Positions 50,187-62,559 of a DNA stretch of 64,000 nucleotides are shown one piece after another (the first letter of the stretch is position 1; each line of letters starts with the position of its first letter). Source of the stretch: Coriobacteriaceae bacterium (GTDB taxonomy: Bacteria; Actinomycetota; Coriobacteriia; Coriobacteriales; Coriobacteriaceae). The translations under genes and the position numbers were made by a program. The stretch covers positions 1 through 64,000 of the forward strand of contig CABIWB010000001.1 in the NCBI GenBank assembly GCA_902362275.1, read 5' to 3'. The notes below the pieces were generated by a model. The model saw nothing but the letters and a program-made list of their open reading frames with translations, was not told the origin of the DNA and did no database searches.

Positions 50187-51554
50187 ATGAATGCAGAGGA
50201 GCTAAGAGGTCATCTTTCTGCCGGTGAAGGATTGATGGTCGAATTCAAGCGTTGCGGTTCGGGGCCACAAAACGACCTGTACGAGACCATCTGTTCGTTT
50301 GCGAATCGCCAAGGCGGCAACATCTTTATGGGCGTTGACGACGACGGTGCCGTTGTCGGCATTCCATCCGGCGCTGTTCGCAATATGCAGCGGATGGTTG
50401 TAAATGCGGTGAGCAACCCAAAGCTGTTTCCCATTCCTCCGGTTATTGAAACTGAATCTATTGAGATCGATGGGGCATGGGTGATTAGGGTCTGGGTGCC
50501 CGTCGGGCCAGCCGTCTATAGTTTCAAGGGCGTGATATATGACAGAATCGCCGACGCGGACGTCAGGGTTACGGGCATTGAACAGATTACGATGCTGTAC
50601 CTTCGCAAACAGAACGAGTATTCCGAGCGACGTGTGTTCAAATATGTCGGAATCGATGATTTTGACCCAGCGACCATTCATCGTGCCCGTTCGCTTGCCG
50701 TAGCAAGAACGCTCGGCCATCCGTGGGGTTACATGGACGATGAGGAGCTGTTGAGGAGCGCCAAGCTATATCGAAAAGACCGCAGGACGGGAGATGAGGG
50801 CTACACCCTTGCGTCCGTTTTGCTGTTTGGCAAAGAAGAGTGCATTTCGGATGTGTGCCCGGCATACAAGACTGATGCAGTCGCAAGGATCGAGAACGAA
50901 GATCGGTATGACGATAGGATGACGTTCACGGGCAATCTCATCGACTCGTACGATGGGCTTATTCGCTTTGCGAAAAAATACATGCAAGATCGGTTTGTTC
51001 TTATAGATGGGCAGCGAATCAGTGCTCGTGACATCATGGTTCGAGAGATCGTTGCGAACTTACTGATTCATCGTGAGTACATCAGTCCCTTTCCAGCTAA
51101 GCTCGTGATCACCCGCTCGCAGCTTGTTACGGAAAATGCAAGCAGAGCTATGTTCGAGGGCAGGCTAACGTTGTCAGATTTCAACCCCGTTTCAAAAAAC
51201 CCGAGCATAGCGGGGGTCTTTAAGGAAATTGGATACGCTGAGGAGCTCGGAAGTGGGTTCCGTAACATACAGCGGTGTTCATTGGCGTACAGCGGCAGAT
51301 CGGCGATTCTTGAGGATGGAGACGTTTTCAAAGCCTCCGTGTCCCTCACGCCCATTGCGGCCGCTCGAGGTGGAGAGGGTGCCTTCGAGGCCGCAAGGGT
51401 GCTGTGCGAGCGGGACGGCTTCATAAGCTCGTCGACGCTTTCGGAATATCTGGGTGTTACGACGAGGACAGCGCAGCGTCACATCCGCCGCCTGCTGGAT
51501 GATGGGTTGATTAGCGAGGACCCGGTTCACGCTCGGAGTTATATTATGAAATAG
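50187..51554 (+). CDS. AlbA_2-domain (Schlafen-like) ATP-binding regulator
   Basis: The 455-residue protein has an N-terminal AlbA_2 domain (LMVEFKRCG, ETICSFANRQGGNIFMGVDDDG), a C-terminal HATPase_c_4-like region (REIVANLLIHREY, EIGYAEELGSGFRNI), and a final winged helix (ISSSTLSEYLGVTTRTAQRHIRRLLDDGLI). This architecture is usually annotated as transcriptional regulator; the function is unclear. GGAGG is seven bases before ATG 50187. It is AT-richer than the island before it. The two bracketing palindromes suggest autoregulation or a mobile unit. Confidence 0.82.
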   Translation: MNAEELRGHLSAGEGLMVEFKRCGSGPQNDLYETICSFANRQGGNIFMGVDDDGAVVGIPSGAVRNMQRMVVNAVSNPKLFPIPPVIETESIEIDGAWVIRVWVPVGPAVYSFKGVIYDRIADADVRVTGIEQITMLYLRKQNEYSERRVFKYVGIDDFDPATIHRARSLAVARTLGHPWGYMDDEELLRSAKLYRKDRRTGDEGYTLASVLLFGKEECISDVCPAYKTDAVARIENEDRYDDRMTFTGNLIDSYDGLIRFAKKYMQDRFVLIDGQRISARDIMVREIVANLLIHREYISPFPAKLVITRSQLVTENASRAMFEGRLTLSDFNPVSKNPSIAGVFKEIGYAEELGSGFRNIQRCSLAYSGRSAILEDGDVFKASVSLTPIAAARGGEGAFEAARVLCERDGFISSSTLSEYLGVTTRTAQRHIRRLLDDGLISEDPVHARSYIMK

Positions 51555-51559
51555 CGCGG

Positions 51560-51594
51560 CAATGTCGCGACAGGAATGCGACGCTGTCGCATTG
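51560..51594. promoter_or_regulatory. Palindromic operator-like repeat, downstream copy
   Basis: It matches 50142-50176 except for two bases in the centre (AATG instead of AAAA). It starts six bases after the stop codon. Confidence 0.7.
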
Positions 51595-51599
51595 CCTGT

Positions 51600-52157
51600 A
51601 TAAGACAAAATCGGGGCATATAGCAGCCTGTCAAGGGCGTTGATTAATTCGTTGGCAAGCTCCAGCTGGCTGGCTCCGCCGCGATCTTCGATAACCATGT
51701 AAAGCCATTTTGCCTCTGTCGGCCTAGTGAATACTGGCACAAGCCGACCCAGGTCGGATCTTGCTTGCGGGCCGGTCGCTAACTTGATTCTCTCGCAACC
51801 CTTGAGGCATCCGACGTTGGTTAGTCCAAGGTGACGGCTTTGGCTCTCTACGATGGTTCTATAGAGGGGCCACGTTGACTCATCGCCGAAGGTGGCGTCA
51901 TTGATCAGCGCGTTTCCATCTCGGTAAAACGGATTAAACATTACCGGGATGGTATAGCCGGGCGCATCGATGGCGAGCTTTGAGCTAAGGGTAGAGCGTT
52001 CGGATTTGATGAAGCCGCTTTTGACGAGCAGGTTGTTTTCGGCAGCTTCGGATCGCATCGTCCTCATAGTCCCGCCGGGTCGGAGCGATATCGATAGCAG
52101 GTTGCGGAGTAACACCCAGTCCTGAAGGGGTTCGAGGTAGCGCGCAGAGATGCGCAT
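51600..52157 (-). pseudogene. Unrecognised reading frame, probably 3'-truncated
   Basis: A minus-strand frame reads MRISARYLEPLQDWVLLRN..., with protein-like stretches such as TEAKWLYMVIEDRGG and QLELANELINALDRLLYAPIL, until the palindrome at 51594. Beyond it the frame continues only as antisense of the AlbA_2 gene, so the original end seems lost. An upstream ATG at 52211 would place the G-tract (as CCC codons) inside the gene. I do not recognise a family; it may be a relic. Confidence 0.35.
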
Positions 52158-52181
52158 TTGCCAAAATCTGAGGGCAAATTC

Positions 52182-52198
52182 GGGGGGGGGGGGGGGGG
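52182..52198. promoter_or_regulatory. 17-G homopolymer tract
   Basis: Seventeen uninterrupted G residues end 36 bases before the start of the giant surface protein and just before a candidate -10 box. Such tracts change length by slipped-strand mispairing and can switch promoter strength. The exact length may vary between cells or be misread. Confidence 0.85.
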
Positions 52199-52202
52199 AT
52201 GC

Positions 52203-52220
52203 TATAGTCAAGACTATATG
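52203..52220 (+). promoter_or_regulatory. Candidate -10 region of the surface protein gene
   Basis: Two boxes, TATAGT (52203-52208) and TATATG (52215-52220), lie in a short palindrome (ATAGTC/GACTAT). For either box the -35 position falls in or at the edge of the G-tract, so tract length would set the spacing. No clear ribosome site separates them from ATG 52235. Confidence 0.5.
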
Positions 52221-52234
52221 TAACCAAAACGGTC

Positions 52235-55200
52235 ATGAATGGACATATCGTGTGCAAACGTACTGCTAACCGCACCCGCGCCGCACGTTTCGCAACCTCG
52301 CAGCGCCGTGCACGCCGCCCGCTCATCATCGCGCTCCTCATGGGGGCGCTCGCCTTGACCTCCGTGCCCGCCGCATTCGCCGCGACGCAGGGCCCGGGCG
52401 GCCAGGCCCCGGCAGACGAGAACCTCGTGACGGGGATCAAATCGCCCAAGAACGCGACTATCGACCTGTTTGACTACTGGATCATCGCGGAGGACACCCC
52501 GGACAACAATGATCCGAGCAACTGGCGGGATGTCGGGATCAACCAAGGGCACGAGTTACGCTTCAGCGACGCGGGCAGGTATGAGAGACCCACATCGAAC
52601 TCCATCAACGCATGGACGGGCAAGAGCGGCAAGCCCTACTTCGGCATCGTCCAGCCGACCCTCGGGCCGGATGGCTACCCCGTGCTCAAGGCTGGAAACA
52701 TCTACCAGTCCAAGGGTGGGCTCACAACAGAGGAACAGTCCCTCGCGTATCTCTTCAACGATGCGCCCGTGCCCGGCAAGCGAACCCATCGTGACGTCAA
52801 GGGCCTCGTGCAGTACATCAACGGCTATTACACGTATGACTGCACCAAGAACTTCGCCATCTACAACGCGGAGCAGAACAAGTTCGACCTCTACAAGCAG
52901 CCGGGTGTGAAGGCCAACACGGGCTCCAAGACGCTCGGCCAGTTCTTCCCCTTTGCCAGCGAGAATGAGGTGTTTGAGAGGGGTGCCAGTGGTGCCCTGG
53001 TTCCCAAGGACATTGACGCGAAGAATCCGGTGATGAACCACTATTTCGGACTCGACCTCACTGCCGATTTCACCCAGCCCGCGAGCGGCATGGTGGCGGG
53101 TAAGGACATGAAGTTCGAGTTCTCGGGCGACGACGACGTGTGGGTCTTCATCGACGGCGTGCTCGTGGGCGATTTGGGCGGCGTCCATGGAGCCGCGTCG
53201 CTCTCCATCAACTTCAAGACCGGCGAGGTCAAACTCGGCGACGCACGCAAGAATCCCAATACGACCTGGGGCGGCAAGGAGACCACGCTGCGCGCGTGCT
53301 TCGAGGAGGCCCTCGGCAAGGAAAAGGCCGCCGCGTACTTCAAGGAGGGCACGAACGCCTTCCTGCCCGGTAGCTACCACACGCTCAAGTTCTTCTACCT
53401 CGAGCGCGGCAACACCGATTCCAACATGAAGCTCATGTTCAACCTGCAGCGCGTGGCGCAGAGCACCATCCGCAAGGACGACCAATACGGCGCCCCCGTG
53501 CCGGGTGCCCAGTTCGCGCTTTACGCCGCGGAGCGCACTGGCGAGGGCGAGAGCGTGCAGTACACCCAGAAGGGGGATAGGCCCATCTGGCAGGGCGCCA
53601 CGAACGCGGCGGGCAACATCAACATCATGACGCCCGACGGAAAGCGTCCCTATGACTTCGACGAGGCGCATAACAACAAAGGCCAGGATTACTACATATT
53701 GAAGGAGCTCTCCGCGCCCGAGGGCTATCGCACGAGCCCCGAGGCGTGGTTGCGTTACATGCCGAGCCACGGCGACGGCCAGGACGGCTTCTTGGTGTGC
53801 GAGAACCGGTGGGACTCCGGCGTGTACGCGCGCCCCAATCAGGTGACCGTGGTGAATGAAGAGAACGTCGTCACGGACGTTCAAGGGACTAGGCATGAGG
53901 TTTCAGACGGGAATACCCTGCTTGCCGTGGTGCTCAAGCGTCATCCGGACAAGAAGGATTGGCATCCCGTCGGCGGAGAGCACGGCGCGTGGAAGGTCTC
54001 GGACGCGGGAATGACGAGTGTCGCGCAGCTCAACGGGCTCATGCGTGAGGGCTATACGCACGTCTTCTCCAAGAACGATGAGCAGTGGAGCGTCGACTTG
54101 GGCGACCTGCCGGGCGACCCCACCGACTACCCCTTCATGACGGCGACGCCGCAAAATGCGGATTACGCCATCGGCTACTACTTGGTGGATATGGATCGCA
54201 CCGCTCTGGAAAAGCTCATCGCGAGCGGTCACGATCCCATCACGAAGGACAACGCGCATTTTCTGGATTCAACGGGCGCGAAGGGCAACTTCAAGCGAGA
54301 GAGCTACGCGACCCTGCATGTGACCGACACGATTAACGGTCTTGCCGTGCAGAAGCTCGACGATGCGGGCAATCCCATCAACGGCGTTACCTTCCAGCTT
54401 TTCCGCGCTGATCAGATGGAAATGGTCGGCGAGGGGGCGGATGCCAAGCTGGTGCCTAAGGCCAACGAGCTTCCGTACATGGAGCGCACGACGAAGAACA
54501 TGATCGACGTCCCTTCGATCGCCCTCGATGGCACGGCGTATTTCGACCGCATCGTCAAGCACGATACGCCGCCTGCGGATACGTATTACATCGTCGAGAA
54601 AGATGTGCCCAAGGGGTATGCGGGCGCCGTCGACCCCATTCGCGTCATCGTCGATGCTGACGGAGTGCACGCCGACGCGGGCGTGGCCGGTGACGACGTC
54701 ATGGTCTCCGTGGGCATCGGCTCGCTCATCGATTCTATGAATCACTACGGCAGCAACGACGGTGTCGAGGTGACGCTCCACGATGTGGTGGCGCAGCTTC
54801 GCGTCGGTACGGTGACTGACAGCGAGACGCCCGGGTTCTATAGGATCGGCGGTTGGGAAAAACCCGCGCCTGAGGCCGAGCAGCAAGATCTGTACTTGCG
54901 CTATTCCGACGAGAGCGCCACGCACGAATACGTCTGGAATAATAAGCATGAGCCCAAGAGCGGCACGCGATTCACGACCGATGAGGGTTTTATCCGCGCT
55001 GCGGTCAAGCAGGACGCCGAGTCGTGCGATCAAAATCACGGTATCGGCACCTGGGATGACTTGGGGACCAAGGACATCACCAATCTCTTCACCGGCTCAA
55101 CTGTGGTCCACGTGACGAACCATCGCGTCGCCTCGCTCGAGGTGGAAAAGCAGGTCGTGATCCCCGAGGGGCTCACCGGTCCCGTCGATTGGAAGGACAA

Positions 55201-58200
55201 GGTCTTCACGTTTGACTTCGAGTTCAAGGACAAGGATGGCAAGCCGCTCGCCGGGGAATTTGACGCACGCGTGTTCGGCGCCGACGGCGTGCAGCGCGGC
55301 GACGACTTCAAGATCGCGAGCCGCGGCACCCATACTCTCAAGCACGGTGAGGTCATGCGCGTGTACGGCTTGCCGGATGGGGCGACCTATACGGTGAGCG
55401 AGCCCGTGGAGCAGATGCCCGAGGGCTTTACCCAGACGCTGCCGCTCGATGGGGCGGGCAAACCCACAACCGCCACGGGTGCGATCAAGCTGGGCGATAC
55501 ATCCCGCGTGCTGTTCGAGAACACGTACACGCCTGCGCCCGCCGTGCTCGACCCGGCAACGTGGCAGATTAAGAAGGAGTTCGTCGACGCCCAGGGCACG
55601 TCCGCGTGGGATCTCAAGTTCAACGCGAATCCGGCGTTCACCTTCGTGCTGGATACCGACCCGGGCACGCCGATGCCTGATGGCGCGACTCTCAATGAGA
55701 ATAACCGCCTCCAGTCGACCATCGTGATCAATCGCGAGGATGAGCAGGCGGGGTACGCCAAGAGCTTCGGCGCCATCCATTACGAGCATCCGGGCACCTA
55801 CCTGTATGCGCTTGCCGAGAAGACGCCGGATGCCGCCGACCGCATCCCTGGCGTGTCGTATTCCGACGCCGCGTATCGCGTGGTGGTGACCGTCTCTGAT
55901 GATAAGGCGGGCAAACTCGTCGCAGACGTTCGGCTGCGCAAACTCGCTGACGATGCCGGCGTTCCACAAGGCGATAACGATGCCGGGGTACCCGTTGAGC
56001 CTCAGAACGGCGTTCACACCGCGCTCTTTAAGAACGTTTTCGCCCTGAATGAGGTTCAGATCGGCCCGTTGGCGACGAAGGTCCTCAATGGGCGTGGTTT
56101 CTCCGCCGACGGCTCGGGTGCGGGCGAGTTCACGTTCCGCATGCGGCCCGCCGGCGACCATGCGGCTGACACTCCCATGCCCGAGGGCACTGCGGGCGAT
56201 GGTGCATCTCGATACATCGAGGTGCACAACAAGGGCTCGATGCTCTCCTTCGGACAACCCACGTTCACGTTCGAGCATCTAAACGGTGCTGATAAGCGGA
56301 CTGGTCGCTTCGACTATGAGCTGTTCGAGGTCATCCCCGATGATGCCGTCAACGCCGATGGGGTGAGATGGGATGCCGCGACGGCCGATCAGAAACTTGC
56401 CGGCGGCTTTGCCAAGCAGGGCATGACATATGACTCGACGCGCTTCGTCGCGCGGGTGAACCTCACGCTCCAGGATTCCCCGATCAAGCGCACTGGTGGC
56501 ACAGAGGCGCTCGCTGCCACGATTACCTACTACCAGGTCACGGGGCTGAACGAGCAGGGCGCTTGGACGGGTTCTGACAACGATCTGACTCCGGTTGAGC
56601 CTACGCCCGGCGGTGCCGACCGCGTTGAGTTCCATAACACGTATCGTGCCGCTGCCTCAACGGCGGGCATCAGACTCACCAAGACGCTTGAGGGCCGCGA
56701 TATGAAGGACAAGGAGTTCTCGTTCACGATCGAGGGCGCCGATGAGGAGTCTCGCAAGCTGCTGGCTGAGACGGACAAGAGCTTCAGCGCTCCTGCGGCG
56801 ATGAGCGGCGAGAAGGCCGTTATGGACGGCAAACTCCAGCTTAAGTTTGACCAGTCGCATGCGGGCTGTACGTATACGTACTACATCAAGGAGGTCACGC
56901 CCCTGTGGGGTGGTGAGCAGATGCCCGGCCTCGTTGGCGGTTGGGACAATTCGATTTACCGTCTTGAATACCGCGTGACCGACAACCTCGATGGCACGCT
57001 CAAGGTAGTTCCAAGGCTCTATCGTACGTACGATCGCTCGGGTGCCATCGTCAACATTCCTCTCGACCTGGGCACGCACACTGATTCCAGCGGCGTGATT
57101 ACGCTCGATTTCGTGAACCGTTACAGTGCGAGCACGACCTTCGCCGGCATCGAAGTCGCCAAGACCATGTATGGCAAGGACCTGGAGGACAAGCAATTCG
57201 GCTTCACCTTGGAACCGGTCGACCCAGCCTCGGCGCAGAAGATGCTCGACCGCGGCCTTCCCGCCGATGAGGAGCAGCTCGAGCGCATCTTCGCCGCCGG
57301 GGAGGCTCCGGAGGGCGAGCCGCACCTGATGGAGAAGCTCAAGGGCCTGAAGTTCACGCAGGCGGATGCAGGGAAGACGTATTCGTATCGGGTTAAGGAG
57401 AATGTCGATCCCGCATGGGATGAGGACGGCGAGGCGCCCGGCGTTCAGGCCGATGGCGTGACCTATGACCGCTCGCAGTTCCTGGTCTCCATCACGCCTG
57501 CGGACAAGGGCGACGGAACCATGAAGACCGTGACCACGGTCGCGCGCACGCACGACGCGCTCACGGGCGATCAGCTGGCAGAGTCCGGGCTGATCGGCAC
57601 GTGGGATAGCGACAACCCCGCAGAGGGCCAGGCCGCAAACCCGCAGGTGCCCTTTGTGAACAGATATAAGGCAAGGCCCGGCGCCCTCCAGTTCGACCGC
57701 TTCACCAAGCGTCTTGTCGGCCGCGATTGGTCCGCTGCGGACTCCTTTGAGTTCACCTGCGAGCAGATGTCCTTCAGCTCTGGCGGACATGACTACAAGC
57801 CGGGCGATGAGGGCTTCGTCTCTGTGCCGCTCGTTGTCTCGCCGGTGAATGCCGAGTCGCCTCAGGACGAGAACGGCTTCAAGCTGTTTGGGATTTCGAC
57901 GAGCCCGGACGTCCTGTACGAGCAGAGCGGAAGGTACGACTACCGCCTTCGTGAGAAAGTCCCCGCCGACGCGGTCAACGCGGCGGGCGTGCGCTATGAG
58001 AACGCGACGGACGAGCAGAAGGCGGCCGGCGGCTTCGTCCAGGACGGCGTCGTGTACAGCAATCGCGAGGTCCGCTTTACGGTTTCCACATTCGACCTCG
58101 GCACGGGCGACGTCTTTGTGATCGGACCCATCCTGCAGGACGGGCCGCAGGAGGATGGCGCGTACTTCACCAACAAGGTGCGCCGGACGGATACGGCCCT

Positions 58201-61027
58201 CATGGCCAAGAAGGTGCTGGAGGGACGTCCGAATCCGCTCGCCGAGGGCGAGTTCTCCTTTGTGCTCGCACCGGTCGACGGCGGCCAGCCGCTCGTCTCG
58301 AGCAATGACGCCGAGGGCAACGTGAGGTTCTCGGGCTTGACGTTCGACGAGCCGGGCGTGCATCAGTACACATTGCGCGAGGTGCATGAGGCCCCGCAGG
58401 CGAACGGCGTGACGTTCGACGATGCGGTCTACGATGTGACGGTGAACGTCTCTGAGGCTGCAGACGGCGAACTCGTTCCTGAGGTGTCGGCGTTCAAGGA
58501 CGGCAAGCCGGTTGAGGGCGTCCCCGTGTTCACGAATCGCTACGAGTCCACGGTCGACTACTCCGCGCTGGGCGGCCTCAAGATCACCAAGGTCCTCAGC
58601 GGCCGCGATATGGCAGACGGCCAGTTCGCCTTCACCGTGAAGGCGACAGGCGACGACGCCGAGGCGATTGCCGCCGCTGCGAGCAAGCTCGGTTTTGCCG
58701 AGGGGCAGACGGAGCGCGTCTTCACGTCCCATGCCGCGAAGGATGGGGCAGTCGACACCATCGATATTCTCGCCGGACTTCCCGATGGGCTCGTGTTCAC
58801 CCAGGCTGACGCGGGGAAGACCTTCGCCTACGAGGTGCGTGAGAGCAGGGGCGGCGAAGCCGGATACACCAACGACCAGACGGTCTATGACGTCTCGATC
58901 GCCGTCGTGGATGACGGTGCGGGCACGCTGACGGTCACCACGACCGTCACGGGTGGCGCCGAGGGCGAGAAGACCTACGTGTACACGAGCGGCCAGAAGC
59001 CCGAGGAGGTCGAGCCCGTGGTGCTGCCCTTCGTGAACAGCTACGCGGCTCAGGGCGACGTCTCGATCGCGACGAGCAAGGTGCTCCACGGACGCCCGCT
59101 CGAGGCAGGGGAGTTCTCCTTTGAGCTGAGGACGGGCGACGGCGCGGCTGGCAGCAGCGAGGTCATCGCGCGTGCTGAAAACGCTGCCGACGGAACCGTG
59201 GACTTCGGCAAGATCGAGTTCACGCTCGATACGTTGGCAGAGGCCGTCGATAGGGGGTACGCCACGCGCGACGCCCGGGGCATCTGGCATGTGCGCCAAA
59301 CCGCCGTCGAGATCGTTGACGGCCTGCCCGACGGCGTCTCCGCGACCGTTCCGAGCCTGAGCTTTGAGGTGAGCGTCGAGGACAAGGGCGACGGCACGCT
59401 CGCGGCGACGGTGCAGGGGCTGGACGGCCACTCATTTGAGAACACCTACGTCACGAACGGTGGCGAGCCTGTGCCAATCGCGCTTGCGGGCCGCAAGGTG
59501 CTGACTTACGCCGAGGGCCTGGCGCCTGCGGACATCACCGGAAAGTTCACCTTCACGGTGACGGGTGAGGACGGCGCGCCGATGCCCGAGCGCACCGAGG
59601 TCACCAATGCCAAGGACGGCTCGGTCGACTTCGGCAAGATCGAGTTCACGCTCGACGGCTTCAACCGCAAATGGGCCACGGAGCATCCCGAGGACACCGG
59701 CCTGGAGGCGCTTGCCGATGGCGAGGCGGCTGCGCGCAGCGGGAAGCCGCGCACGGTGTCCTTCACCTACACCATCACGGAGTCCGGCGAGGTGCCGGGC
59801 GTGACTAACGATCAGAACGCATCGCGCACGGTGACCTTCGCCGTGACGGACGACGGCTCGGGCGCCCTCACCGTGACGCGCGATCCCGCCGAGGGCGCGA
59901 GCTTCACCTTCACCAATGCTTACACGGTGGACGAGCTCTCCTCGAGCGTGACTGACCAGATTGCGATTTCCAAGGACCTCACGGGCAAGCCGCTTGCGCA
60001 GGACGCCTTCGCCTTCGTGCTCACCGAGCTCGTCGATGACGGAGCGGGCGCGGACTTGCAGGCCCTGACCGCGACGAACGGCGCGGACGGCAGGGTCGCT
60101 TTCCCGGCGCTCACCTATACGGAGCCGGGCGTCCACACGTACCGCCTTGCCGAGGCCGTCGATGAGAACGCTGGCGGCATCGAGTTCGACAAGGCTGTGT
60201 ATACGGTGCGCACGACGGTCGTCGACAACGGCGACGGCACGCTTTCCGCCACGCACGAGGTTCTCGACGAGAGCGGGAGCAAGGTCGATGCGGTTGTGTT
60301 CGCGAACGCCTACGATCCCGTGGGCGTCACCGTGCCGCTTACGGCATTCAAGATGCTGACCGGTCGCATGCTAGAGGATGGTGAATTCTCCTTCGAGCTG
60401 GTGGATGCGGACGGTACGGTCCTGCAGACGGTCTCGAACGACGAGCGCGGCAACGTCGCATTCACGCCCCTGCGTTATACGGCTGAGGACCTGGCGGATG
60501 CCGCTTGGGTCGATCAGGACGGGGTCATCTCGCGTGCGCGCGAGTTTGCATACGCCGTGCGCGAGGTCGTTCCCGCGGATGCCGTGAACGCGGATGGCGT
60601 GCGCTGGTCCGATGCCACGGAGCAGCAGCGTGCGACGGGCGGTTTTGTCAAGGACGACGTCGTGTATGACGGCAGGGCGTTCACGGTGACCGTGGCGCTC
60701 TCCGACGACGGCGGCGGTGCCCTGAGCGCCACTGCCTCGTGGAGCGAGCCGCCCGTGTTCCAGAACGTCTATGACAGGCCTGAGGAACCCGGCGATCCGG
60801 GTTCGCCCCACGTACCTGGCGATCCGGGTTCGCCCCACGTACCCGGCGATCCGGGTTCGCCCCACGTACCTGGCGATCCGGGTTCGCCCCACGTACCTGG
60901 CGGTCCGGTTGGCGGCGGGAAGCCGCCCTCGACGGGCGATACCTCCCTCGTGCTGACGGTCGGCGTCGCAATCGCGGGAGTCGCTGTTGCGGGCCTGGGA
61001 ATCTGGCTGGCGCGTCGCAAGCGGTAG
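52235..61027 (+). CDS. Giant sortase-anchored fibro-slime / pilin-like repeat protein
   Basis: A 2930-residue surface protein. In order: basic start and signal peptide (LIIALLMGALALTSVPAAFA); a fibro-slime domain with FSGDDDVWVFIDGVLVGDLGG (about 296-316); SpaA-like domains at about 409-520 and 701-820; then about ten to twelve pilin-like (Spy0128/FctA) repeats from about 960, each opening with a K-x-L-x-G-R-like strand (TKVLNGRGF, TKTLEGRD, KKVLEGRP, TKVLSGRDM, SKVLHGRPL, FKMLTGRML) and closing with F-x-N-x-Y (FENTY, FVNRY, FHNTY, FANAY, FQNVY), the probable Lys-Asn isopeptide pairs. A GDPGSPHVP linker leads to PPSTG (2897-2901), a hydrophobic segment and RRKR. PPSTG replaces LPxTG. No ribosome site is clear. 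Confidence 0.9.
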   Translation: MNGHIVCKRTANRTRAARFATSQRRARRPLIIALLMGALALTSVPAAFAATQGPGGQAPADENLVTGIKSPKNATIDLFDYWIIAEDTPDNNDPSNWRDVGINQGHELRFSDAGRYERPTSNSINAWTGKSGKPYFGIVQPTLGPDGYPVLKAGNIYQSKGGLTTEEQSLAYLFNDAPVPGKRTHRDVKGLVQYINGYYTYDCTKNFAIYNAEQNKFDLYKQPGVKANTGSKTLGQFFPFASENEVFERGASGALVPKDIDAKNPVMNHYFGLDLTADFTQPASGMVAGKDMKFEFSGDDDVWVFIDGVLVGDLGGVHGAASLSINFKTGEVKLGDARKNPNTTWGGKETTLRACFEEALGKEKAAAYFKEGTNAFLPGSYHTLKFFYLERGNTDSNMKLMFNLQRVAQSTIRKDDQYGAPVPGAQFALYAAERTGEGESVQYTQKGDRPIWQGATNAAGNINIMTPDGKRPYDFDEAHNNKGQDYYILKELSAPEGYRTSPEAWLRYMPSHGDGQDGFLVCENRWDSGVYARPNQVTVVNEENVVTDVQGTRHEVSDGNTLLAVVLKRHPDKKDWHPVGGEHGAWKVSDAGMTSVAQLNGLMREGYTHVFSKNDEQWSVDLGDLPGDPTDYPFMTATPQNADYAIGYYLVDMDRTALEKLIASGHDPITKDNAHFLDSTGAKGNFKRESYATLHVTDTINGLAVQKLDDAGNPINGVTFQLFRADQMEMVGEGADAKLVPKANELPYMERTTKNMIDVPSIALDGTAYFDRIVKHDTPPADTYYIVEKDVPKGYAGAVDPIRVIVDADGVHADAGVAGDDVMVSVGIGSLIDSMNHYGSNDGVEVTLHDVVAQLRVGTVTDSETPGFYRIGGWEKPAPEAEQQDLYLRYSDESATHEYVWNNKHEPKSGTRFTTDEGFIRAAVKQDAESCDQNHGIGTWDDLGTKDITNLFTGSTVVHVTNHRVASLEVEKQVVIPEGLTGPVDWKDKVFTFDFEFKDKDGKPLAGEFDARVFGADGVQRGDDFKIASRGTHTLKHGEVMRVYGLPDGATYTVSEPVEQMPEGFTQTLPLDGAGKPTTATGAIKLGDTSRVLFENTYTPAPAVLDPATWQIKKEFVDAQGTSAWDLKFNANPAFTFVLDTDPGTPMPDGATLNENNRLQSTIVINREDEQAGYAKSFGAIHYEHPGTYLYALAEKTPDAADRIPGVSYSDAAYRVVVTVSDDKAGKLVADVRLRKLADDAGVPQGDNDAGVPVEPQNGVHTALFKNVFALNEVQIGPLATKVLNGRGFSADGSGAGEFTFRMRPAGDHAADTPMPEGTAGDGASRYIEVHNKGSMLSFGQPTFTFEHLNGADKRTGRFDYELFEVIPDDAVNADGVRWDAATADQKLAGGFAKQGMTYDSTRFVARVNLTLQDSPIKRTGGTEALAATITYYQVTGLNEQGAWTGSDNDLTPVEPTPGGADRVEFHNTYRAAASTAGIRLTKTLEGRDMKDKEFSFTIEGADEESRKLLAETDKSFSAPAAMSGEKAVMDGKLQLKFDQSHAGCTYTYYIKEVTPLWGGEQMPGLVGGWDNSIYRLEYRVTDNLDGTLKVVPRLYRTYDRSGAIVNIPLDLGTHTDSSGVITLDFVNRYSASTTFAGIEVAKTMYGKDLEDKQFGFTLEPVDPASAQKMLDRGLPADEEQLERIFAAGEAPEGEPHLMEKLKGLKFTQADAGKTYSYRVKENVDPAWDEDGEAPGVQADGVTYDRSQFLVSITPADKGDGTMKTVTTVARTHDALTGDQLAESGLIGTWDSDNPAEGQAANPQVPFVNRYKARPGALQFDRFTKRLVGRDWSAADSFEFTCEQMSFSSGGHDYKPGDEGFVSVPLVVSPVNAESPQDENGFKLFGISTSPDVLYEQSGRYDYRLREKVPADAVNAAGVRYENATDEQKAAGGFVQDGVVYSNREVRFTVSTFDLGTGDVFVIGPILQDGPQEDGAYFTNKVRRTDTALMAKKVLEGRPNPLAEGEFSFVLAPVDGGQPLVSSNDAEGNVRFSGLTFDEPGVHQYTLREVHEAPQANGVTFDDAVYDVTVNVSEAADGELVPEVSAFKDGKPVEGVPVFTNRYESTVDYSALGGLKITKVLSGRDMADGQFAFTVKATGDDAEAIAAAASKLGFAEGQTERVFTSHAAKDGAVDTIDILAGLPDGLVFTQADAGKTFAYEVRESRGGEAGYTNDQTVYDVSIAVVDDGAGTLTVTTTVTGGAEGEKTYVYTSGQKPEEVEPVVLPFVNSYAAQGDVSIATSKVLHGRPLEAGEFSFELRTGDGAAGSSEVIARAENAADGTVDFGKIEFTLDTLAEAVDRGYATRDARGIWHVRQTAVEIVDGLPDGVSATVPSLSFEVSVEDKGDGTLAATVQGLDGHSFENTYVTNGGEPVPIALAGRKVLTYAEGLAPADITGKFTFTVTGEDGAPMPERTEVTNAKDGSVDFGKIEFTLDGFNRKWATEHPEDTGLEALADGEAAARSGKPRTVSFTYTITESGEVPGVTNDQNASRTVTFAVTDDGSGALTVTRDPAEGASFTFTNAYTVDELSSSVTDQIAISKDLTGKPLAQDAFAFVLTELVDDGAGADLQALTATNGADGRVAFPALTYTEPGVHTYRLAEAVDENAGGIEFDKAVYTVRTTVVDNGDGTLSATHEVLDESGSKVDAVVFANAYDPVGVTVPLTAFKMLTGRMLEDGEFSFELVDADGTVLQTVSNDERGNVAFTPLRYTAEDLADAAWVDQDGVISRAREFAYAVREVVPADAVNADGVRWSDATEQQRATGGFVKDDVVYDGRAFTVTVALSDDGGGALSATASWSEPPVFQNVYDRPEEPGDPGSPHVPGDPGSPHVPGDPGSPHVPGDPGSPHVPGGPVGGGKPPSTGDTSLVLTVGVAIAGVAVAGLGIWLARRKR
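60791..60898 (+). repeat. Four tandem 27-bp repeats (GDPGSPHVP linker)
   Basis: Four copies of a 27-base unit differ only at one C/T position and encode GDPGSPHVP four times just before the sorting signal. In-frame units can be gained or lost without disrupting the protein, changing the wall-spanning stalk. Confidence 0.9.
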
Positions 61028-61079
61028 CTCAGAGGCAGCTGGTCCATCTTGCGCGAGAACGCGCATTTATATGACGGCG

Positions 61080-61113
61080 AGGCGCCCTTGGGGATTTCCA
61101 AGGGCGCCTTTTC
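61080..61113 (+). terminator. Terminator of the giant surface protein gene
   Basis: AGGCGCCCTTGG (61080-61091) pairs perfectly with CCAAGGGCGCCT (61098-61109), followed by TTTT. Confidence 0.9.
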
Positions 61114-61251
61114 AATGCCGCTTGGACGGCTGAATGGCGGTACGCGCCTGACTCGTCATGACACGGTGGCACCGGGGGGAGAAGCGTATACATTGATTAA
61201 GCGCAACCGCGGCGTGGGCAATGAGGAGATCGGAGAGAGCCCATGGAACCG

Positions 61252-61940
61252 CTATCGCGCGTGGGCGATGACCGCATCGCGCAGCCAAGCGGTGCAGCCC
61301 TTGACGACTTCATCATAATATGAGGTGAATCGTTCGTCCGCCACATACATCTCGGCCAACCCCTTATGTGCCTCCGGCGAGTAGAAGCTCCAGGTGTAGT
61401 CGAGCCATTCCTTGTGAAGGGCGCACAGGCGCGCACCTGCTGGTCCTGTTGGATCGGCGCCCGCCCTCACGGCATCTTCGAGTTCTTCATTGATTCTGCG
61501 TCCCAGCTCTTGGAAGCGCGCGAATTGGTCCTTGCTCAGGTTGAGCATCTTGCGGTTGGCGCCGTCCGCCGCCGCGTCACCCCAGCGTTCTCGCACCTCC
61601 TGCCCGTACGTGCGCTCATTGTCTTCAACGAGCTCTCGTTTCATGCCCTCGAATTTTTCCTTGTCGTCCATGTGGGTTCCCTTCTCGATATGGTCGATGG
61701 TCTGCTCGACGGTGCGGATGAGCGCATCGAGGCGGCCTCGCTCCGCTTTGAGCGTCGCAAGGTGTCGATTCAGCGCACACGTGCGGTCCGTTTCGGTGCC
61801 GCTGAGTGCATCCGATATCTCGGCGACTCCCACGCCAATGTGACGCAGAAGTAGAATCTCCTGCAAACGGTCGATGTCCGCCGATACGTAGCGGCGGTAT
61901 CCGTTGGGTCCGCGCGTCGGCGTCAACAGCCCCGCCTCCT
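61252..61940 (-). pseudogene. MerR-family regulator with TipAS domain, 5' end missing
   Basis: The minus-strand frame has the MerR wing (EAGLLTPTRGPNGYRRYVSADIDRLQEILLLRHIGV), a coiled coil (LKAERGRLDALIRTVEQTIDHIEKG) and a C-terminal TipAS domain (KFEGMKRELVEDNERTYGQEVRERWGD...). The first 20-25 residues, with the recognition helix, are missing: upstream of about 61940 the sequence is the antisense of another gene. The open frame that continues to 62553 is not real. Without the HTH start it should not bind DNA. Confidence 0.75.
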
Positions 61941-61950
61941 CAACCGCCGC

Positions 61951-62496
61951 GGCTGCTTCCCCAAGTTCGACCTGTTCATCGAGCAGACGAGGGACGTCTG
62001 GAAGGACATGCTCGACATCCGCAAGCGCTTCGAGCCGCGCGCCGAGGAGCTCGCCAGGAAGTACGCGCTGGCCGACTACACCATGTTCATCGGCTCGGGC
62101 GCGCTGTGGGGCGAGACCATCCTGTACTCCATGTGCCTGCTCGAGGAGATGCAGTGGAAGCGCATCCGCCACATCACCTCGCACGACTTCTTCCAAGGCG
62201 CGCTTGAGCTGCTCGAGCCCGGCGTCCCGGTGTTCCTGTTCATGGGCGAGGACGAGTGCCGCGCCCTCGACGAGCGCGTCCGCGCCTTCCTCACCAGCGG
62301 CGTGACCGGCGACGAGGACTACGTCATCATCGACACCGCCGAGTACGCCATCCCCGGCCTGGACGACGACTTCCGCGTCATCGTGTCCCCGTGGATCCTC
62401 TCCGTGCTGACCACCGACCGCCTCTCGCGCAACTACGAGCTGGTCACCAAGCACAACCTCAAGTACCGTCGTTACTACCACCAGTTCGACTATTAA
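61951..62496 (+). pseudogene. SIS-domain sugar isomerase/deglycase, 5' end missing
   Basis: From 61951 the plus strand reads CFPKFDLFIEQTRDVWKDMLDIRKRFEPRAEELARKYALADYTMFIGSGALWGETILYSMCLLEEMQW..., a SIS domain like those of the AgaS/FrlB (fructosamine-6-phosphate deglycase) group, ending normally at YYHQFDY. The N-terminal half is missing at the same junction that removed the MerR start. The substrate class is inferred. ATG 62008 could still start a partial 162-residue protein. Confidence 0.7.
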
Positions 62497-62526
62497 GAGT
62501 CGTCGCTGCGATAGGCTTGCGTAACA

Positions 62527-62559
62527 GGGCGTCCGCTTGCGCGGGCGCCCCATTTTTTT
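62527..62559 (+). terminator. Terminator of the SIS-domain gene
   Basis: GGGCGTCCGC pairs with GCGGGCGCCC (one G-T pair), followed by TTTTTTT. It is intact although the gene is not. Confidence 0.85.

Follow-up and report, generated by a model that had tools for sequence, protein, structure and literature searches.

Sortase-dependent pili of the gut actinobacterium Bifidobacterium breve are switched by G tracts whose length is plastic within the population (PMC9187656). The B. breve tracts studied lie inside coding sequences and were shown by experiment to turn expression ON or OFF through the reading frame, while one passage of the same report places other G tracts in promoter spacers (PMC9187656). 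In Gardnerella, about 70% of G/C tracts of at least 8 bases are located upstream of ORFs at distances of up to 300 bp. Many of the genes with tracts encode surface proteins, including LPXTG proteins, and one locus was checked for length variation by Sanger sequencing (PMC11287997). The fim promoters of Bordetella contain an extended stretch of C/G, reaching C19 in fim3 of B. bronchiseptica, whose length affects adhesin transcription; an upstream element called the fim box has been defined experimentally (PMC1891110). Finally, phase variation of the Eggerthella lenta capsule results from a large reversible DNA inversion (PMC13174815, a preprint).

G-tract switching in Coriobacteriia was not described in titles or abstract openings among the matches listed, most subscription journals being outside the scope of the search, and no report of it in Collinsella was found in the literature searched. 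Eggerthella lenta belongs to the same class as the organism considered here. We analyzed a 64-kb stretch of DNA (hereafter, the window) from a Collinsella gut bacterium that carries a G17 tract 5' of the gene for a giant cell-surface protein. Our preferred reading, to which we assign a probability of about 0.74, is that the tract constitutes a slipped-strand contingency switch that would vary transcription of the giant protein. Slip-prone promoter switches of this type are already known; the apparent novelty lies in their occurrence in Coriobacteriia, where we found no report. A switch had been proposed for this locus in an original prediction made from the sequence. Its central elements, namely a length-variable G tract 5' of a -10 box, a giant sortase-type protein, and a host in Coriobacteriia, held up under analysis. 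The start codon that it named is probably not the one used, and no convincing -35 box was found.

The G17 tract and its promoter

The window letters contain exactly 17 consecutive Gs, and the tract ends 36 bases before the ATG at 52235; both figures agree with those originally given. This is the sole G or C run of at least 9 bases within the 64-kb window, in which 1.5e-5 runs of 17 or more are expected under a first-order model. Shorter G runs are depleted, as illustrated by runs of length 6 (1 observed versus 16.6 expected). Promoter-region homopolymers that control surface genes are typically recognized at about 8 or more bases, a length that the G17 tract, situated just before a -10-like box, clearly exceeds. 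Searches for one exact 19-base promoter pattern in viral contigs and for positions 52100-54100 among plasmids (megablast) returned no match. Elements in the vicinity of the tract are as follows.

52182..52198, plus strand: G17 homopolymer tract, read from the sequence; G10 at the same position in C. stercoris and other lengths in public alleles
52200..52208, plus strand: candidate extended -10 element TGCTATAGT, read from the sequence and kept in C. stercoris; function putative
52215..52220, plus strand: second -10-like box, TATATG, read from the sequence; function putative
52171..52176, plus strand: AGGGCA, the best -35-like hexamer (3/6 matches); weak
52157..52178, plus strand: dyad TTTGCC-N10-GGCAAA directly 5' of the tract, a possible regulator site; weak
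52203..52218, plus strand: palindrome TATAGTC-AA-GACTATA, spanning the -10 and the likely start site; borderline

Both -10-like boxes of the original prediction are present (TATAGT at 52203-52208 and TATATG at 52215-52220), and a single base separates the end of the tract from TGCTATAGT. The -35 box expected upstream of the tract is not convincing. With a spacing of 15-19 bp to TATAGT, and for every tract length between 7 and 20, the hexamer closest to TTGACA agrees with it at 3 of 6 positions at most (2/6 at length 17). A consensus scan of the window region and of C. stercoris detected no sigma70-type promoter. AGGGCA would be separated from TATAGT by 17 bp at G8 and 19 bp at G10; at G17 the distance is 26 bp by coordinates. 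The dyad was equaled in score by 15 of 500 shuffles, which is borderline, and does not rank first among the dyads of C. stercoris. The palindrome, as good as which were 19 of 500 shuffles, is partly lost in that species.

Given the -10 boxes just 3' of the tract, the simplest reading is that the tract acts through the promoter. Replication slippage, the presumed cause of length changes, would add or remove Gs directly 5' of the extended -10, which would shift the -10 relative to upstream contacts such as a weak -35, an activator site, or an UP element. As a result, transcription of the giant protein would vary from cell to cell within a population, with a predicted ON/OFF output. Our tentative guess is that G17, with its 26 bp to the best -35-like hexamer, corresponds to a low or OFF state and that approximately 8-10 Gs would support higher expression. 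In one version of the model, the dyad would serve as the upstream contact for an activator, by analogy with Bordetella fim promoters (PMC1891110).

A different mode of action would bypass -10 spacing altogether: the tract could act through the 5' end of a transcript that started upstream, or through a G-quadruplex or R-loop. Seventeen Gs suffice for an intramolecular quadruplex, and the failure to find a good -35 also favors such a mode. Nevertheless, the -10-like boxes lie just 3' of the tract, and to the left of 52145 the window and C. stercoris have different flanks, so that an upstream start would not be a feature shared by the two. We therefore consider action without -10 spacing improbable and retain the promoter switch as our working model.

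The ATG at 52235, originally designated the start of the giant gene, is ACG in C. stercoris, which points to the GTG at 52250, common to both genomes, as the shared start. The ATG is probably not the start used, and the GTG stands 51 bases past the tract. An in-frame TAG (52205-52207) between the tract and the start codon leaves the tract outside the frame of the giant gene, and changes in its length are thus unable to shift that frame.

The giant gene and a segment shared with Collinsella stercoris

Four further features define the gene and its surroundings.

52250..61027, plus strand: giant surface protein gene from the shared GTG; the ORF from ATG 52235 comprises 2930 amino acids
60787..60908, plus strand: 27-bp tandem repeat of 4.5 copies coding PGDPGSPHV, read from the sequence
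52145..61941, plus strand: 9.8-kb segment in common with C. stercoris at 95% identity by sequence comparison; promoter, tract, and gene lie inside
51279..52157, minus strand: remnant of a resident gene of ~400 amino acids with its N-terminus replaced at the 52145 junction, recognized from the N-termini of relatives and from the junction

The giant protein begins with a signal peptide-like N-terminus, contains a fibro-slime match, SpaA, DUF7601, and 10 FctA stretches, and terminates in PPSTG followed by a hydrophobic and basic tail. These features identify a sortase-type protein, as proposed originally, with one correction: the sorting motif (~60923-60937) is PPSTG here versus LPSTG in C. stercoris, and anchoring in the window strain may be impaired as a consequence. 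PGDPGSPHV motifs number four in the window gene versus one in C. stercoris, which suggests that the wall-proximal part of the giant protein is also variable in length. A class B sortase-like gene (TIGR03064, just below cut-off) is located at positions 671-1675 of the window.

Scanning of the first 400 residues against one genome per species yielded 27 loci, the nearest of which belongs to C. stercoris DSM 13279 (97%). In this genome the promoter is kept and the tract is G10. G/C runs of at least 9 were found in 3 of the 27 loci: that of C. stercoris, a Bifidobacterium primatium locus with G10 at the gene start (L011), and L019, where a C9 run lies 4.7 kb past the start of the match. The C. stercoris genome contains 18 G runs of at least 9 bases after merging of 34 overlapping matches. 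Comparison of the giant genes of the window and C. stercoris revealed a dN/dS of 0.29 (dS 0.098), indicative of purifying selection.

The window purF is 93-97% identical to those of 21 of 43 genus genomes versus 79% to that of C. stercoris, with which the giant gene shares 95% identity. This discrepancy makes joint horizontal transfer of gene and tract probable; with one housekeeping gene as the basis, the 9.8-kb piece carrying tract, promoter, and gene probably moved as a unit. Among the 43 genus genomes, only that of C. stercoris has the promoter region; two other matches are pieces of 26-27 bases inside the gene. The left junction (52145) replaced the N-terminus of the resident minus-strand gene. 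At the right junction (61941), a MerR-TipAS gene is cut and adjoins part of a SIS-like gene, so called from a Pfam match below cut-off. A 433-amino acid minus-strand ORF (61252-62553) is a product of this junction that combines the C-terminal part of TipAS-MerR with the antisense of the SIS-like gene. The element at 61933-62500 is present twice in several genomes; considered as a flanking repeat and traced in 10 genomes, it proved to be part of the SIS-like gene, and no link to the tract was found.

The left junction bears on another explanation for the tract, namely, that it is a coding poly-C switch of a minus-strand gene at 51279-52211. An open minus-strand ORF does extend through the tract, both here and in the public ORF calls P0004, P0008, P0009, P0027, and P0045. 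However, full relatives of this gene (393-423 amino acids; partial-coverage rows with 48-56% identity) carry a different N-terminus, and the ORF crosses the 52145 junction, beyond which it is antisense to the giant gene. Moreover, no Pfam family was found in P0001 or in the relatives P0004, P0010, and P0011. The ORF runs through the tract by chance alone, poly-C being read as proline, and we regard a minus-strand coding switch as very improbable.

Length variation at the locus and G runs in homologous genes

Natural tract lengths were decoded from 21 public antisense ORFs that run from the 5' end of the giant gene back through the tract, which were read as codons with known flanks. Nineteen ORFs contained uninterrupted tracts of 4 (one ORF), 8 (four), 9 (four), 10 (six), 11 (two), 12 (one), or 13 Gs (one), values that represent counts rather than frequencies because only open antisense frames are visible; the tracts of the remaining two (P0020 and P0040) are interrupted. 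The ORFs are cluster representatives from assemblies, in which homopolymer errors are possible. For P0038, the script returned 9 with a poor fit, and we used the value of 10 obtained by eye from the codons; in alleles with C for T at the tract edge, the script value fell one below the run, and the run is reported. The range of 4-13 Gs together with the interrupted forms indicates that tract length is highly variable. When the G17 of the window and the G10 of C. stercoris are included, the promoter exhibits eight length classes. Such differences between strains characterize slipped-strand promoter loci, and they answer half of a test set by the original prediction, in which one fixed length in all strains would have spoken against a switch. 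The left flank of the window is clear in 8 of the 21 ORFs (P0004, P0008, P0009, P0020, P0027, P0043, P0044, and P0045), and P0038, a ninth allele, has 13 residues of it in common. Thus, lengths vary even within this arrangement.

Many poly-G runs occur in the genus assemblies G032, G033, and G034, which raises the question of a sequencing or assembly artefact. The window run, in contrast, is single and internal, its flanks both match C. stercoris, and the complete-genome record of that species has a G run at the same place. An artefact is accordingly hardly credible, although the exact length of G17 may be off. Among the matches listed, G032 and G033 have many poly-G runs at contig ends, and these are probably sequencing artefacts.

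Homologues of the N-terminal part of the giant protein are encoded by 18 of the 43 genomes searched in the genus and by 77 of the 396 searched in the class. We selected 74 regions, consisting of the best 73 of 105 places in the class and one place from the genus search (L068); many of the weaker 32 places left out are second pieces of one gene. With gene starts estimated from the match position, the 5' windows (29.6 kb) contained 18 sense G-runs of at least 8, versus 3 in the other 217 kb. C runs of this length numbered 1 in the 5' windows versus 4 elsewhere. The enrichment of 5' G-runs has a binomial p of 2e-14; collapsing two groups of related tracts raises it to 9e-12, and these values are guides since further loci may be related.

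These data also bear on whether the tract is hypermutable but neutral, its length varying with no useful effect on expression. Consistent with neutrality, G-runs of at least 8 are missing from the 5' window in 56 of the 74 homologous regions, and two alleles at the locus carry interrupted tracts. Arguing against it, 5' G-runs of the homologues occur far above the rate in surrounding DNA, and a neutral G17 at a promoter is unlikely in a window that is depleted of G runs of at least 6 bases. We judge neutrality unlikely overall and continue to favor a contingency switch.

Tracts in homologues occupy two kinds of position. Those of L058, L063, L064, and perhaps L163 lie in the promoter region, as does that of L201, which is 5' of the gene but outside the window used for counting and was counted against the enrichment. 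Others follow the start codon and precede the signal peptide. The tracts of L072 and L164 are among those inside the coding sequence. Twelve coding-tract loci were picked for a clear start codon (six form one homologous group; L074, L173, L179, L190, and L212 are not in the set). As assembled, 4 are in frame and 8 out of frame, as would be expected of genomes caught in either state. Across the genus, the pattern G8-N0-8-TATANT matched 8 tracts (overlaps merged; one at a contig end) versus 4 matches for the reversed control, an enrichment too weak to count in favor of a switch.

Other tracts and relation to known systems

G runs also precede genes of other kinds. A G11 tract lies before an AMP-binding gene in C. 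stercoris (L040) and in a second species, G016 (L159), and is preceded at 10 bp by a TTGCCA-like box. The AMP-binding assignment comes from Pfam on the gene of L040; we take the gene of both loci to be dltA-like. At L144, a few bases separate a G11 tract from the start of the DNA methylase gene that follows it (PF01555), and phase variation of this methyltransferase is possible. Promoter-like arrangements were observed before a DUF6020 gene (L090; G run between TTGACG and TATACT, spacer 19) and before an RpiR-type regulator (L028; G run between TTGACC and TTCAAT, spacer 17).

It is tempting to speculate that G tracts form a contingency system across the whole class Coriobacteriia, in which a family of giant sortase-type adhesins repeatedly gained tracts, in the promoter or the N-terminal coding region, and in which the switch travels between species with its gene. 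We hold this broader view tentatively, at slightly under even odds. If it is true, the tracts at the dltA-like AMP-binding gene in two species and at the methylase gene would point to a phasome in these gut bacteria. If the proposed switch at the window locus is true, gut Collinsella would hedge the display of a giant surface protein by stochastic switching, and the cells of a clonal strain would differ in host contact, phage receptors, or immune targets. Sortase-anchored proteins under G-tract switching would then be known beyond Bifidobacteriaceae, in another class. The decoded alleles constitute a ready natural length series at the giant gene promoter.

How does the locus compare with described systems? 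E. lenta likewise exhibits phase variation of its surface, yet the cited preprint attributes it to inversion and not to a homopolymer tract (PMC13174815). Gardnerella represents another bacterial family than the organism of the window locus (PMC11287997). As in the Bordetella fim genes, a long run is situated in the promoter of a surface protein; unlike the fim box of those promoters, the window offers a weak dyad only, and the bacteria and the protein are unrelated (PMC1891110). With B. breve, the locus shares a G tract at the 5' end of a sortase-type surface gene, but the Collinsella tract, a putative switch, lies upstream of the frame (PMC9187656). The tracts of L072 and L164 are nearer to the coding tracts described in B. 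breve than is that of the window (PMC9187656).
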